A stretch of DNA of 64,000 nucleotides. It comes from Gemmatimonadaceae bacterium (GTDB lineage: Bacteria; Gemmatimonadota; Gemmatimonadetes; Gemmatimonadales; Gemmatimonadaceae). Of the stretch, positions 21,126 through 26,083 are shown piece by piece. The stretch spans positions 1 through 64,000 of the forward strand of contig DATNEW010000043.1 in assembly GCA_035606695.1 (NCBI GenBank). The letters are read 5' to 3'. Both the position numbers and the translations under genes were made by a program. The number at the start of each line of letters is the position of its first letter. Position 1 is the stretch's first letter. The notes under the pieces were generated by a model. That model was given only the letters and a program-made list of their open reading frames with translations. It had not been told where the DNA came from and searched no databases.

Positions 21126-21557
21126 TCACCGAAGCGGCTTCGCGCGATCGCCTCGCACGAACAGCATACTGCGCCGTTCTCCACCGTCGATGATCTGCAC
21201 TACGTTCACCTGGTCGTCGAACAGGTCGCAGAGCAGAGAATCGGCGAGTCGCAGCGCGCGCGGCGAACCGTCGAACGTTCCATCGAAGCAAACAAAGACC
21301 ACGTCTCCGGTGTGGCGCACGCCGCATGAGCGCAGCGCAAGCTGCCTGCCTGCGGCGTCGGTAATCGCGAGCCCCGCCGCGACATAATCCCCACGTGACA
21401 GGCGCCGCTTCGCCGCCGCCGTCACATCGTCGGCGAACGCGCGCACGACCGCGCGCACCGAATGCCGCGCCTCGTCCACGGTGAGCTCCGTCATCGTCGT
21501 GTGCAGGGGATGCATGCGCGCGACGAGCATCGCGGCGAACGCGAGGCCGATCACCAT
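21126..21557 (-). CDS. DUF6702-like exported protein
   Basis: 143 residues. A short hydrophobic N-terminus (MVIGLAFAAMLVA) leads to RMHPLHTTMTELTVDEARHS and VRAVVRAFADDV, the HP-H-S/T-x-T-E opening of DUF6702 proteins. It later has DSLLCDLFDDQVNVVQIIDG. Last gene of a five-gene minus-strand operon; it overlaps the HupE-like gene by 7 bases. Function is unknown; in other genomes this family accompanies membrane or metal-related proteins, so a periplasmic accessory role is only a guess. Confidence 0.6.
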   Translation of the reverse strand: MVIGLAFAAMLVARMHPLHTTMTELTVDEARHSVRAVVRAFADDVTAAAKRRLSRGDYVAAGLAITDAAGRQLALRSCGVRHTGDVVFVCFDGTFDGSPRALRLADSLLCDLFDDQVNVVQIIDGGERRSMLFVRGDRAKPLR

Positions 21558-22156
21558 GGCGCGCGCTCCACCGCCCACCGCGACGCGATGACGAATACGG
21601 CGAGCGAAACGCCGACGACGCGTAATCTCAGCGCAGGCCAGCTCGCTCGATGCGCCCGCAATCGCTCGATCACCGCGTCGCAAATCGCCAGAGCCACAGC
21701 CGCCGCGAGCAGCACCACGATCTGTCCGGCCTCGATGCCGACGTTGAAGCCGAACAACGGCAGGGCGACGTGATCCACGAACATCGCGCGGAGATAGGTG
21801 GCGAACCCGGCGCCATGCACCAGCCCGAACACGCCCGCGAACAGCGGGCGATATCGCCCGCTCCACGGCGCTCGCGCACGATCGCTCACCAGCATGTTCT
21901 CGACGCACGTCGCGACGATCGTGAGTGGAATCAGGAACTCGACGACGTTCGAAGGAAGCGTCAACGCGCCGGTCACCGCCAACGCGAGCGTCACCGAGTG
22001 GCCGATCGTGAATGCGGTCACGACCCACAGTGCATCGCGGACGTCGCGCCATCGATAGATGGCCGCGAGCGCGAGGAGAAACAGGATGTGGTCCATCGCC
22101 TCGACGTCGACGATGTGCCGGAAGCCGAGCTGCATGAATGTGGCGAGTGTGCTCAT
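21551..22156 (-). CDS. HupE/UreJ_2-family membrane protein
   Basis: 201 residues with about six membrane segments. FRHIVDVEAMDHILFLLAL and TAFTIGHSVTLALAVTG are the signature of HupE/UreJ_2 proteins, relatives of nickel/cobalt permeases, with conserved His and Asp in the first helices. A later GLVHGAGFATYL is also typical. The ion carried is not known. The start at 22156 overlaps the stop of the TPR gene (ATGA). In the operon it follows DUF4331 proteins and a TPR lipoprotein, a combination that looks like one envelope system. Confidence 0.82.
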   Translation of the reverse strand: MSTLATFMQLGFRHIVDVEAMDHILFLLALAAIYRWRDVRDALWVVTAFTIGHSVTLALAVTGALTLPSNVVEFLIPLTIVATCVENMLVSDRARAPWSGRYRPLFAGVFGLVHGAGFATYLRAMFVDHVALPLFGFNVGIEAGQIVVLLAAAVALAICDAVIERLRAHRASWPALRLRVVGVSLAVFVIASRWAVERAPW

Positions 22157-23400
22157 CGCGCCGCCTCGGTCGTGTTCGAGACGGCTGCCTCGATCGCCGC
22201 GGCGTGGCGCGCGAGCAACGGGTCCTTGGTGCCTTGCCCGAGCGCCATGTGAATCGCCGACAATGCTTCGATATCGCGCCCCTGTTTGTGCAGGGACCAC
22301 GCGAGCAGATCGTACGCGTAAATGTCGCGGCGGCTTTTCATCTCCTTGCGGATGTTGCGCGATACCAATGAGACGCGCCGGTCGTGATCGAGGAGGAACA
22401 AACTCCACGCGCGATGATACGCGCCCGGCTGGTGTGACACCGCCACGTCGAGCGCGCGCGCGAACTCGGCCGCCTTCGCCGTATCGCCCAGTGCGGCGTA
22501 TGCATCGCTGACGATGCCGAGTGTGGCGGGATCCAGGTTCGACGCGATCGAGGCTTCGCCGAAGTGCGCCGCAGCCCGCCAATTACCCCGCGCCGCCGCA
22601 AGACGAGCGAGGCCCGCGAGCACACGATAATCGTTCGGGTTTGCGCGCAAACCGGCCTGATATGCGCTGTCGGCGGCGGCGAACTTCTCGTCGCGCAGCT
22701 CGATGTCGCCCGCGCGCAGCCAGAACCACGCGACCTGCTCGCGCGGCATACCAGGGGTGCGCTGTGCGGTCGCGAGGGCATCGCGCATGTATCGCCGCGC
22801 GGCCTCGGTGTGGCCACGAATCTCCGCCCATCGCGCCAGGCGTGGCGCGACGGCGAGGCTGTGCTTCGCGCTGTCGAGCGAGGCGAAGCCCACCTTCGCT
22901 GAGTCATACGCGCCCAATTCCATCTCGATCTCGGCGACCATGGCGCGAAGTGCGGGCGATGATGGTTCGGAGTCGCGGACACGCTTGGCGACGACGAGCG
23001 CTTCGTCGAAACGATGCTGCGCGAGCAAAGCCGACGCCAGCACCTGCCGCGCGGCCGCGTTGTGCGTCGACCGATTCGCCAACGAGTGGCGTGCCGCCTG
23101 TTCTGCGAGCACGGCGTCGCGTTGATCGCCCGACTGGCGCGCGCGCTCGAGGTACAGCGCGGAGAGATGCGCGAGATCGGCGGCGCCGCTGGGATCGCGC
23201 GCGGCGCGCTCGCGGTAGAACAGGATGTCTGCTTCGAGCACGTCGCGTTCACTCGACGTGGCCGCCTGAATGGTTGGCGGACGAACCTGACGCCGTGACG
23301 AACATCCGCTCGCGCCCGCGACGCATGCGATTCCCGCCAGCGTCAGCATCGCGAGAAGCGCCCTCCCGTCACGCCGCGGAGACACGAGGGCGATGATCAT
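22153..23400 (-). CDS. TPR-repeat lipoprotein
   Basis: 415 residues. The signal peptide ends in GASGCSSRR (lipobox ASGC, Cys about 32). The mature protein consists of helical TPR-type repeats over most of its length (for example DYRVLAGLARLAAARGNW, then LGIVSDAYAALGDTAKAAE). Such proteins act as scaffolds in the periplasm or at the outer membrane. The start MIIALVSPRRDG at 23400 overlaps the preceding stop (ATGA). It is the third gene of the DUF4331-HupE operon. Partners are inferred only from the coupling. Confidence 0.8.
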   Translation of the reverse strand: MIIALVSPRRDGRALLAMLTLAGIACVAGASGCSSRRQVRPPTIQAATSSERDVLEADILFYRERAARDPSGAADLAHLSALYLERARQSGDQRDAVLAEQAARHSLANRSTHNAAARQVLASALLAQHRFDEALVVAKRVRDSEPSSPALRAMVAEIEMELGAYDSAKVGFASLDSAKHSLAVAPRLARWAEIRGHTEAARRYMRDALATAQRTPGMPREQVAWFWLRAGDIELRDEKFAAADSAYQAGLRANPNDYRVLAGLARLAAARGNWRAAAHFGEASIASNLDPATLGIVSDAYAALGDTAKAAEFARALDVAVSHQPGAYHRAWSLFLLDHDRRVSLVSRNIRKEMKSRRDIYAYDLLAWSLHKQGRDIEALSAIHMALGQGTKDPLLARHAAAIEAAVSNTTEAAR

Positions 23401-23972
23401 TTCGGCGAGGCCAGGTAAGGGAATGTCGTGGAGAACGTGCTGTGCGGGCCGACGTTGTCGGTGCAGAGCGGGAGCGCGCCGGGTTTGCACACGGCCTGGG
23501 TCGGATCGAGCAGATCGCTGAACGCGGCCGTCAACGCGGTACCCACGGCGTCGTCGGTGAGCTTGCGACCGCCCCATCCGTTCGCGAGCGCCCACGACAA
23601 CCAACCGGCGGTCGACGCGGCCTTGTCCGTCTGGATGACGAGCATGTCGGGCAGCAGCACCGCGGCGAGCGTGTTCTGCAATGTGGTCGCCTGCGGGCGG
23701 AACTGCGCGATGAAGCCTTTGACGCTTGGCGCGAACGTCGCGACATCGTCGGATGGCCCGATCGCGCCATGGAGCGGGTGATCTCGTTTCGTCAGCAGAA
23801 CTTCGCTGACCAGCGGATTGCCGAGACGCTGGACTTGATCGAACGTCCGCACGCCGGGCGTGCTGGCCGGCGCGGTCGTACCGTTGTCGTCGCCGCACGC
23901 GGCGCCGGCGAGCGCCAAGCCTGCGCAGATGAGGCCAAGGCGACGGCCGAATCGGGCGATATTTACAAACAT
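23397..23972 (-). CDS. DUF4331 C-terminal-half lipoprotein
   Basis: 191 residues with its own lipoprotein signal (lipobox AGAAC, then GDDNGT). VQRLGNPLVSEVLLTKRDH corresponds to the segment that follows the N-terminal domain in full-length DUF4331 proteins (R-x-GNPLVNE). The N-terminal part of DUF4331 is encoded by the preceding gene (24004-24747), so the family is split into two separately exported polypeptides. Two Cys near the C-terminus could pair. Function unknown. Confidence 0.7.
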   Translation of the reverse strand: MFVNIARFGRRLGLICAGLALAGAACGDDNGTTAPASTPGVRTFDQVQRLGNPLVSEVLLTKRDHPLHGAIGPSDDVATFAPSVKGFIAQFRPQATTLQNTLAAVLLPDMLVIQTDKAASTAGWLSWALANGWGGRKLTDDAVGTALTAAFSDLLDPTQAVCKPGALPLCTDNVGPHSTFSTTFPYLASPK

Positions 23973-24003
23973 GAATGAGTACCCTGGAATGAGTTCGGTG
24001 GCG

Positions 24004-24747
24004 TCAACGGCTGATCGTGCCCCACACGCCGAGCTTGGCGTTGCCGCCGGCGGTGAGCGTCGACGCCGGGAGCTCGATGACGATCGAGAGCACGTTGAAT
24101 CCCTTCACGAAGTCCACCGCGGCCGTGGCGGAACGGAACGTCGTGGCGCTCGGCGAGTCTGGAATGGACGAGAGCGGCCCGGTCGATGGCTTGCGATCCG
24201 GCAGCACGCGGAAAAACTGCTCGAGATCGATGAAGAACGGATCCTCGCGTGCGCCGGCGAACACCTGCATGCCGTTCGGCCCGGTCAGCACGGTGTTGAC
24301 CTTGCCGGTGACGACCGGGGTCGACGTCGAGATGGTGTTGCCCATCGAGCCAACGACGTCCGGCGCAACCGGACCGCGTACTTCGACGGTTTGATTCGCG
24401 CCGGTGCCGCTGAACGTCACCTGAATGACACGATCTTCCTTCGCGTCGCCGGTGTTGTCGATCTTGAACTGATACAGCAGGTTCGGATCGAAGCTTGTAT
24501 TCGGCGTTTGTGCCGGCGTCAGAAACGCCCAGCTGTTCATGACCAGGACGACGCTGTTCGTGCTCGCGCCGGGGAACGCATAGACGTCCGTCATGTCCAT
24601 CGACGGATTGAGCTCGACCAACGGATTGTCCTGGTGATCGGATGCGCGCGCGACACCGATGCCGGTGATGCCGGTGGCGACGAGCGCGCCCGCGACGATC
24701 AACGCAGCGATCGTCCGCCGGGGTGTAACGAGGGTGCGGAAACGCAT
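24004..24747 (-). CDS. DUF4331 N-terminal-domain exported protein
   Basis: 247 residues. The signal anchor (TIAALIVAGALVATGITGIG) ends before ASDHQDNPLVELNPSMDMTD and VYAFPG, the SDH-x-D...D-x-TD-x-YAF opening of DUF4331. LLYQFKIDN and DPFFIDLEQFF followed by GFNVLSIVIELP are further family segments. It ends where the family normally continues with the GNPLV-E part, which is in the next gene, 31 bases downstream. MRFRTLV at 24747 is chosen because it begins the basic region of the signal. First gene of the operon 24747 to 21126. Confidence 0.78.
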   Translation of the reverse strand: MRFRTLVTPRRTIAALIVAGALVATGITGIGVARASDHQDNPLVELNPSMDMTDVYAFPGASTNSVVLVMNSWAFLTPAQTPNTSFDPNLLYQFKIDNTGDAKEDRVIQVTFSGTGANQTVEVRGPVAPDVVGSMGNTISTSTPVVTGKVNTVLTGPNGMQVFAGAREDPFFIDLEQFFRVLPDRKPSTGPLSSIPDSPSATTFRSATAAVDFVKGFNVLSIVIELPASTLTAGGNAKLGVWGTISR

Positions 24748-24859: not shown

Positions 24860-26083
24860 TTACGGCAGTTTCAGCGAACCATTGACGAGCACCGGCGTCG
24901 TGCTGTTCGTGAACGAGCCGTTGCCCAGCTGTCCGGAGAAGTTGTTGCCCCAGCAGAAGAGCTGAGACGCTGTGTTGATGGCGCATGTGTTTGCGTCGCC
25001 GACGTCGAGCATCTTCACGTTCGATATGCCCGGTACTTTGACCGGCGTGTACGCGCACGTCTCGCTCTGCGTCGTGCCGGAGGCGTTGATGCATCCGTCC
25101 GTCGAAGTGACCGCACCAAGCTCGCCGTGGCTGTTCAATCCCCAACAATAGACGTCGCCGGGGCCCGTGATGCCGCACGTGTGCGAGAAGATGTCGTTCG
25201 CGCGGGTGGCGCGGAGGAGCGTGAACTTCTGGTTCGTCACGACCGCCGTGGGCGACAGATGGAACGACGACGTACCGTCGCCGAGCTGCCCGGAGAAGTT
25301 GTTGCCCCAGCAATAGGCGGTGCCGTCGGTCGCCAATCCACACGTATGCACGGAACCCGACGCGAGCGATGCGAACGCAACGTTTCCCGAGATTCTCCGC
25401 GGCGTCGCGCTGAGCTGTGTGTTCGTTTCGCCGGTCGCCAACTCGGCGTACTGATTGTCGCCCCAGCAATACGTGTCGCCCGAGAGGAGGATTCCGCAGG
25501 CGTGCCAGAAGCCGGCGGAGATCTGGCGGAACTGCAAGTTTCCGGGAATGACCACCGGTGCGGTGCGTTTCAGTGTGTCGCCGGCGCCGAGCTGTCCTCG
25601 GCCGTTTTCGCCCCAGCAGTACGCCGTTCCGGCGCTCGAGAGTCCGCAGCCAAACTTTCTGCCGACCGTGATCGACACGAGCGGAACCGGTACCGCGACA
25701 CGCGACGGTGTCGTGACGATCGCGCCGGTGACGCCCGGCTGGTTGGGATCCTCGCCCCAGCACCACACGGCACCGTTCTGATTCAGGCCGCACGCGGTGA
25801 GGCTGCCCGCCGAGATCGCGACGAACGAATGGCCGCCCGCGAGCGGCGATGGGATGCTCTTGTTCGTGGTCGATGAGTCGCCGAGCTGTCCCTGCGCGTC
25901 GTTGCCCCAGCAGAACGGGACGGCGGTGGCCGTGACGACGCACACGAAGCTCGAGCCGACCGCGAGAGAAGTCGCCGTCGTCGGGGTGACGCCGCGAAAG
26001 CCTCCGGGCGCGGTCGAATCACTTCCGCAGGCGGATAGCAAGGCGGCGACGGCGAGCAGGGCGACGGGAAGGAGCTTGCGCAC
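24860..26083 (-). CDS. RCC1-repeat (seven-bladed propeller) lipoprotein
   Basis: 407 residues. The GTG start at 26083 has AAGGA about 11 bases upstream and opens a signal with lipobox LSAC. Seven repeats each contain a CWG core (FCWGNDAQGQLGD, WCWGEDPN, YCWGENGRGQLGAGD, YCWGDN, YCWGNNFSGQLGDG, YCWGLNSHGELGA, FCWGNNFSGQLGNG). The RCC1/BLIP-II fold with seven units gives a closed propeller. Cysteines recur regularly before WG and at the preceding CG/CV, and could pair. A surface binding or inhibitor role is possible but not shown. Confidence 0.85.
   Translation of the reverse strand: MRKLLPVALLAVAALLSACGSDSTAPGGFRGVTPTTATSLAVGSSFVCVVTATAVPFCWGNDAQGQLGDSSTTNKSIPSPLAGGHSFVAISAGSLTACGLNQNGAVWCWGEDPNQPGVTGAIVTTPSRVAVPVPLVSITVGRKFGCGLSSAGTAYCWGENGRGQLGAGDTLKRTAPVVIPGNLQFRQISAGFWHACGILLSGDTYCWGDNQYAELATGETNTQLSATPRRISGNVAFASLASGSVHTCGLATDGTAYCWGNNFSGQLGDGTSSFHLSPTAVVTNQKFTLLRATRANDIFSHTCGITGPGDVYCWGLNSHGELGAVTSTDGCINASGTTQSETCAYTPVKVPGISNVKMLDVGDANTCAINTASQLFCWGNNFSGQLGNGSFTNSTTPVLVNGSLKLP

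Follow-up and report, generated by a model that had tools for sequence, protein, structure and literature searches.

Gene content of the locus

The window analyzed here, i.e., the 64,000 nucleotides from position 1 of contig DATNEW010000043.1 (assembly GCA_035606695.1), stems from a Gemmatimonadaceae bacterium with a genome size of 5.9 Mb and harbors an operon of five open, co-directional minus-strand genes within positions 24747-21126, which we label g1 to g5. The first two divide the DUF4331 domain (PF14224, 421 positions) between them: g1 (24747-24004, 247 amino acids (aa), 137.2 bits) encodes an exported N-terminal half with matched stretches within domain positions 1-236, and g2 (23972-23397, 191 aa, 45.5 bits) a C-terminal half covering positions 251-421, which is a lipoprotein with its own export signal (LAGAAC). 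They are followed by g3 (23400-22153, 415 aa), a TPR protein and probable lipoprotein (TPR_19 44.4 bits, TPR_14 39.2 bits, above cut-off), by g4 (22156-21551, 201 aa), a stand-alone HupE/UreJ-2 permease matching positions 1-152 of the 156 in PF13795 (149.8 bits), and by g5 (21557-21126, 143 aa), an exported protein of metal-binding type from the DUF6702 family (PF20420, 62.6 bits). Save for some TPR models of g3, all Pfam matches of the five genes exceed the curated cut-offs (27 bits for PF14224, 24.5 bits for PF13795 and 24 bits for PF20420), which bears out the families that an earlier sequence-only reading of this stretch had named.

The junctions measure +31 bases for g1/g2, -4 for both g2/g3 and g3/g4, and -7 for g4/g5, so that the three overlaps of 4 to 7 bases and the single 31-base gap of that reading hold exactly. 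Here, the start of g3 is taken as the ATG at 23400; a simple gene caller favoured the ATG at 23349, which leaves a 47-base gap. That the five products are made together, as had been proposed, is supported by the short conserved junctions along with one conserved promoter, and the exported or membrane nature of the whole set is supported as well. Rfam and tRNA scans of the window gave no matches.

Conservation of gene order

To describe the distribution of the genes, we used a sample of 150 Gemmatimonadota genomes, in which DUF4331 is present in 23, DUF6702 in 44 and HupE_UreJ_2 in 91, and added further loci from a genome-contig scan. The exact five-gene order is found in 13 of the 23 DUF4331 genomes. 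Both sources together provide 24 distinct Gemmatimonadota five-gene loci (window included) whose outer neighbours vary, and this recurrence next to differing neighbours argues that the order is not due to chance. Gaps among the five genes are mostly below 60 nt across loci; some large gap values are artefacts, and the start choices of the simple caller are partly unreliable.

Partial layouts are observed too. One genome (L104) shows four of the five genes with HupE missing, and other loci comprise both DUF4331 halves and TPR only, the two halves only, or TPR-HupE-DUF6702 (L123, L127). The gene set is therefore modular. The sequence-only reading had suggested looking for the same gene order in other phyla. 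When doing so, we find that Pseudomonadota and Actinomycetota also show the core order DUF4331-TPR-permease, and that Bacteroidota show it in part. In Gemmatimonadota, Pseudomonadota and Actinomycetota, the TPR gene has DUF4331 on one side and the permease on the other.

Pairing of DUF6702 with HupE

Among the 49 DUF6702 matches of the 150 Gemmatimonadota genomes, 35 have a HupE gene within 8 kb, 34 of which are on the same strand with HupE just upstream. That is, the genes are not scattered in most genomes, which the sequence-only reading had named as the outcome speaking against it. Furthermore, all 44 DUF6702 genomes of this phylum (44/44) have HupE (p = 1e-12, Fisher's test, which ignores shared ancestry). 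The 148 Bacteroidota genomes show DUF6702 in 42, HupE in 42 and both in 41 (p = 2.8e-34, same test); here, 16 of 45 DUF6702 matches are within 5 kb of HupE, 11 of these on opposite strands. Since the two families are paired in several different gene arrangements, ancestry alone is an unlikely explanation of their co-occurrence. HupE is present without DUF6702 in 47 Gemmatimonadota genomes, and some of these permeases are fused or short AHG-type proteins.

A second recurrent Gemmatimonadota layout (L112-L121) reads HupE - M1 peptidase - DUF6702, with the M1 gene present in 10/10 scanned loci; a 2.3-kb spacing in two genomes (G261, G311) suggests the same layout in Bacteroidota.

Predicted fold of the DUF6702 protein

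The sequence-only reading held that no function was known for the set. This overlooks that DUF6702 is a characterised Ni/Co/Cu-binding family and that HupE/UreJ-2 permeases with such domains fused to them have been described (PMC12537917, considered here in part). According to that part of the source, a DUF6702 protein, named a 'sequesterase', binds Ni (5.6 pM) as well as Co and Cu (nM), with His28/His32 as modelled ligands in PaDUF6702, and in 65% of the family a His becomes N-terminal once the signal peptide has been cleaved off. For Ang-1/Ang-2 domains in fusion with HupE/UreJ-2, binding of Cu is reported with His1 as the copper ligand, and the source calls HupE/UreJ-2 domains nickel permeases and relates them to the capture and assimilation of metal (PMC12537917).

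The AlphaFold2 model of g5, computed from 19 sequences, has a mean predicted local distance difference test (pLDDT) score of 90.2 and is an Ig-like beta-sandwich with a relation to Ang-1. In VIA, the best match of the model is 9GCE (Z 11.3, root-mean-square deviation 2.9, 117 aligned), which is the Ang-1 domain from a HupE/UreJ-2 protein. This alignment opens with the conserved His16 (residue 16 of the model) and residue 1 of the 9GCE chain. The zinc-binding ZrgA (Z 11.0) and PA4063 (Z 10.2) follow, and the next rows are at 6.8 or below; Foldseek ranks these three proteins first as well. Both His16 and His19 of g5 are conserved, with the His column kept in 28/29 rows. Within a set of 272 proteins, the DUF6702 profile matches one fused domain (L278, E 8.4e-5). 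Because the g5 fold best matches an Ang domain that is fused to HupE elsewhere, we regard g4 and g5 as a split anglerase-permease. In the plasmid collection, DUF6702 is found in 2 records only.

The DUF4331 halves and their predicted N-termini

A split DUF4331 is also observed in Gemmatimonadota and Bacteroidota relatives; elsewhere the domain is unsplit. We rejected the idea of a broken gene, since g2 has its own start, a lipobox and an invariant Cys26 (19/19 alignment rows) and since the split recurs in both phyla.

The predicted mature N-terminus of g1, for which cleavage would occur before SDH, reads SDHQ and is invariant in 20/20 alignment rows. To obtain respective statistics for the N-terminal half in general (DUF4331N), we collected 105 open reading frames. 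Leaving out 9 duplicates and 6 frames that were truncated or in which the motif was not found, 90 were counted. Their first three residues are SDH in 46, ADH in 37, SSH in 1 and others in 6 cases, and the residue preceding X-X-His is A or G in 86 of the 90. Among nine annotated DUF4331 proteins of the plasmid collection, eight show SSHREAP directly after an A at the predicted cleavage site; the stretch examined for the ninth did not include the site. The amino-terminal motif NH2-X-X-His is known as ATCUN (amino-terminal Cu and Ni binding) and binds Cu(II) and Ni(II). Judged from these sequences, processed DUF4331 should thus begin with X-X-His, a candidate Cu/Ni-binding motif.

The model of g1 is a beta-sandwich with a mean pLDDT of 81. 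Almost all of its first 41 residues are of low confidence (residues 11-41 below 50), as would be expected of a free tail. No known fold was matched by DUF4331N (Foldseek best E 0.09, VIA best Z 6.1 to antibody domains); the antibody matches may reflect only the common beta-sandwich, and a new fold is not thereby implied. Likewise, a sequence search of the PDB found no DUF4331 relative (best E 0.9 for the alignment of the N-half, none up to E 1 for the C-half), and our literature search found no paper naming DUF4331 or its accessions. DUF4331N also holds an Asp-rich DNTGDAxED stretch, a possible Ca site. In three Rhodobacteraceae (L271, L273, L281), an unsplit DUF4331 adjoins type II secretion genes.

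Fused and substituted permeases in relatives

In L105 (Gemmatimonadota), TPR and an unsplit DUF4331 are followed by a HupE fused to an N-terminal domain, and fused HupE forms are also found in L268, L269, L272, L275, L278, L282 and L283. From the plasmid collection we examined 15 of 32 DUF4331 records. Seven of the 15 loci, all from Pseudomonadota (Marinobacter, two Pseudoalteromonas, Lichenicola, a Comamonadaceae bacterium and two Paraburkholderia), combine an unsplit DUF4331 with a HupE that carries an N-terminal domain; the TPR profile matches six of these, and the seventh has a gene annotated as CDC27 family. Miltoncostaea shows DUF4331-TPR only, and the remaining three of the 15 are the Rhodobacteraceae named above, in which neither TPR nor a permease is nearby.

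In four Actinomycetota loci (two Streptomyces, Embleya, Nonomuraea), DUF4331-TPR is followed by a nickel transporter of about 550 aa in HupE's place. Pfam NicO, tested on one of these transporters, gave 30 bits (cut-off 27.7), and phmmer matches the remaining three to that protein; the NicO permease in the HupE slot carries a His-rich loop. Of all observations on gene context, this exchange of two nickel-type permeases at one position speaks most strongly for a metal. A His after an A-x-A-like site is present in five fused HupE proteins with annotated starts and in one NicO protein. The N-terminal domains of fused HupE proteins (L278:3683-4903 and others) show an EF-hand-like loop D-x-N-G-D-G-D-I-T, which is a possible Ca site.

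Linked TonB-dependent receptors

In 30 of the 36 Bacteroidota loci, a TonB-dependent receptor, detected by a plug profile, lies inside the span or at most 0.75 kb away; in 11 of the 24 Gemmatimonadota five-gene loci, one lies within 1.3 kb. The background, taken from one genome per phylum, is 2 per 400 kb in both phyla. A plug motif of the type N-M-x-S/T-H-A-H-G-Q-G-Y is common to all 30 of the linked receptors from Bacteroidota and to 5 of the 11 from Gemmatimonadota, with a sixth in variant form. The corresponding HAHGQGY subfamily co-occurs with DUF4331 in Bacteroidota (10/20, p = 9e-6) and in Gemmatimonadota (12/16 at E<1e-80, p = 1e-8). Examples of this subfamily, whose plug motif is common to two phyla and tied to DUF4331 loci, are L189:8669-10882 and L093:1079-3202. 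Between the TPR gene and the receptor gene of Roseivirga (L182:8593-9099) we observe a His-rich protein of 168 aa that probably spans the membrane once; L176 has a 119-aa protein at a similar place.

TonB receptors usually carry complexes, and the receptors L094:7516-9513 and L097:6987-9116, which adjoin the operon, are distantly related to the pyrroloquinoline quinone (PQQ) receptor PqqU (347.6 and 357 bits, cut-off 1200). Both points would fit an envelope uptake of a small molecule or metal complex, e.g., a cofactor or metallophore, instead of a free ion, with HupE moving something else. We consider this quite improbable, given that a nickel permease of NicO type, equipped with a His-rich loop, can stand in for HupE, that the DUF6702 fold groups with metal-binding proteins, and that conserved His motifs are found in the receptor plug.

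Promoter and sigma factor linkage

The operon is preceded by a predicted promoter of extracytoplasmic function (ECF) type, ATCC-N16-CGTA (24859-24836, minus strand), 112 nt upstream of the g1 ATG and just past the stop of the upstream gene. The latter (24860-26083, minus strand) encodes an RCC1-repeat-like lipoprotein, the family being named from its repeats, and its stop codon abuts the promoter.

The motif ATCC-N14-18-CGTA is present upstream of DUF4331N in 48 of 52 distinct Gemmatimonadota upstreams, compared to a mean of 0.5 and a maximum of 3 in Markov shuffles. It also occurs in 24 of 253 control upstreams; for several of these 24, the gene that follows is a linked sigma, receptor or fasciclin gene, or the upstream comes from a second copy of the same locus. 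For the Bacteroidota-centred set, 12 of 40 upstreams show the motif (shuffles: mean 0.25, maximum 3), where the 40 include one Desulfobacterota locus (with motif) and one other non-Bacteroidota locus (without). Both Pseudoalteromonas DUF4331 genes examined have it upstream, and seven further genes from the plasmid collection, tested likewise, gave no match.

Linked fasciclin, sigma and receptor genes have the motif upstream as well, so that the regulon extends beyond transport. One could thus suspect that the five exported proteins work on no common substrate and have nothing more in common than an operon and a stress regulon under ECF control. This seems highly improbable to us, since fused counterparts exist for both split pairs, since the co-occurrence of DUF6702 and HupE is near-perfect even where the genes are far apart, and since the same order is found in loci without a detected promoter motif. 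A fasciclin-domain gene with the same promoter motif is located directly upstream of the operon in L095 (7369-7935); the mycobacterial SigK targets MPT70/MPT83 are fasciclin proteins.

Apart from the window, 11 of the 23 five-gene loci are flanked by a pair of ECF sigma factor and RskA anti-sigma factor, and so are 15 of the 36 Bacteroidota loci, compared to 0/20 and 1/20 background stretches of 20 kb in Gemmatimonadota and Bacteroidota, respectively. No such pair is found in the 64-kb window, whose promoter would presumably be read by a SigK-type sigma factor. A sigma/anti-sigma pair next to the operon would fit a stress response, i.e., metal detoxification, efflux or buffering, in which the permease exports or the periplasmic proteins merely sequester excess metal. 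The NicO family also includes exporters (RcnA), and the name 'sequesterase' for DUF6702 (PMC12537917) points in the same direction. Nevertheless, we regard detoxification as unlikely: TonB receptors, which are import devices, are linked to the operon in the mentioned fractions of Bacteroidota and Gemmatimonadota loci, HupE/UreJ-2 is described in the considered part of PMC12537917 as a nickel permease for capture and assimilation, and the conserved set comprises no RND or P-type exporter.

Interpretation as a probable metal capture system

The gene set and its conservation are observed, as are its fused and split equivalents, the match of the DUF6702 fold, the co-occurrences and the promoter motif. 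On these grounds, we read the operon as an envelope system for the capture and transport of transition metals of the Cu/Ni/Co class, to which we assign a probability of about 0.7. Metal handling in the envelope, which the sequence-only reading had suggested alongside small-molecule handling, is thus supported as the best reading; nothing was found that points to peroxide stress, for which an expression test had been proposed.

Within such a capture system, g4 would act as the inner-membrane permease and g5 as a periplasmic metal-binding partner that docks on it, i.e., as the counterpart of the fused anglerase domain. The g1 protein and the lipid-anchored g2 protein would form one unit, taking up metal upstream of DUF6702 via the flexible X-X-His tail, such that metal might pass from the DUF4331 pair to DUF6702, on to HupE and into the cytoplasm. 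The g3 lipoprotein may serve as a scaffold holding the parts together, and the ECF-sigma promoter would turn on all five genes together. In relatives, the TonB-dependent receptor would carry the ligand across the outer membrane into the periplasm. The order of transfer, the direction of import and the role of g3 are deduced from these parts, and export instead of import is possible.

Several observations weigh against this reading. Metal binding by the operon's own proteins is deduced from genes and models, and the co-occurrence tests carry the ancestry reservation given above. The simple -3/-1 rule places His16 of the window's g5 at residue 3 of the processed protein (cleavage between LVA and RMH). 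Since the rule agrees with a His1 in 9 of 28 DUF6702 rows and yields position 3 in the window, the N-terminal His feature of the family is not established here. The hhalign comparison of the DUF6702 profile with four Ang-like domains was not significant, and 14 of the 49 Gemmatimonadota DUF6702 matches have no HupE within 8 kb. Neither TPR nor a permease is found near the three Rhodobacteraceae DUF4331 genes. The 5 kb to either side of the window's operon contain no TonB receptor, and a survey limited to the HAHGQGY subfamily found no receptor of this kind in the window's genome at E<=1e-30. Finally, this genome encodes neither urease nor NiFe hydrogenase, and NiFe hydrogenase is not enriched in DUF4331 genomes (5/23 vs. 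44/150). For these two reasons, nickel in particular is neither favoured nor supported as the metal.

Relation to known systems

Among the closest known systems, the Ang-1/Ang-2 fusion permeases (PMC12537917, in the part considered) have the permease family PF13795 and the partner's predicted fold (9GCE) in common with the operon. The conserved His of g5 pairs with residue 1 of 9GCE, although the window's His is probably not residue 1. In contrast to the fusions, the domain found in the operon belongs to a different Pfam family (DUF6702) and has a separate, overlapping gene of its own; the operon further includes a TPR lipoprotein and the two halves of DUF4331. The operon is not a strict anglerase because the metal-binding domain is not fused to the permease; we read it as a split, enlarged variant of the anglerase-permease kind, which probably works like one. 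The metal sequesterase PaDUF6702 is from the same Pfam family as g5 (above cut-off), but the considered part of PMC12537917 ties DUF6702 to M1 peptidase and HAD genes and not to HupE or DUF4331, with which it is associated here. The periplasmic zinc-binding proteins ZrgA and PA4063 have a fold like g5, whereas they serve, according to the portions of the literature consulted, other transporters (ABC-type for ZrgA); a PDB sequence search found no sequence similarity of g5 to either of them. SigK-RskA regulons resemble our loci in the sigma/RskA pairs that adjoin the operon in relatives and in the fasciclin gene near L095. In contrast, the literature excerpts considered name no metal operon among their targets and call the inducing signal unknown.

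Our literature search did not find an association of DUF4331 with HupE, NicO, DUF6702, a specific TonB receptor or RskA-type sigma factors in print. New here are the co-occurrence of DUF6702 and HupE, NicO in place of HupE in Actinomycetota, the X-X-His of DUF4331, the linkage to the HAHGQGY receptor and to ECF/RskA in relatives, and the ECF-type promoter.

Implications

A wider reading, which we put forward tentatively and at somewhat below even odds, is that DUF4331 is a transition-metal carrier with an ATCUN N-terminus in an unrecognised, envelope-spanning metal-import route. Beside DUF4331, this route would comprise the TPR lipoprotein, DUF6702/anglerase and either HupE or NicO as the permease, joined in many lineages by the HAHGQGY TonB receptor, and it would extend over Gemmatimonadota, Bacteroidota, Pseudomonadota, Actinomycetota and perhaps Desulfobacterota. 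In many of them it would be switched on by SigK/RskA-type sigma factors with metal status as the signal.

DUF4331 is widespread, and a role as metal carrier, if true, would be its first testable function. Likewise, the anglerase idea, so far tied to a fused protein, would extend to a modular system of several parts, and the periplasmic partner of stand-alone HupE/UreJ-2 permeases would be explained. For RskA-type sigma systems, metal status would become a candidate for the signal.

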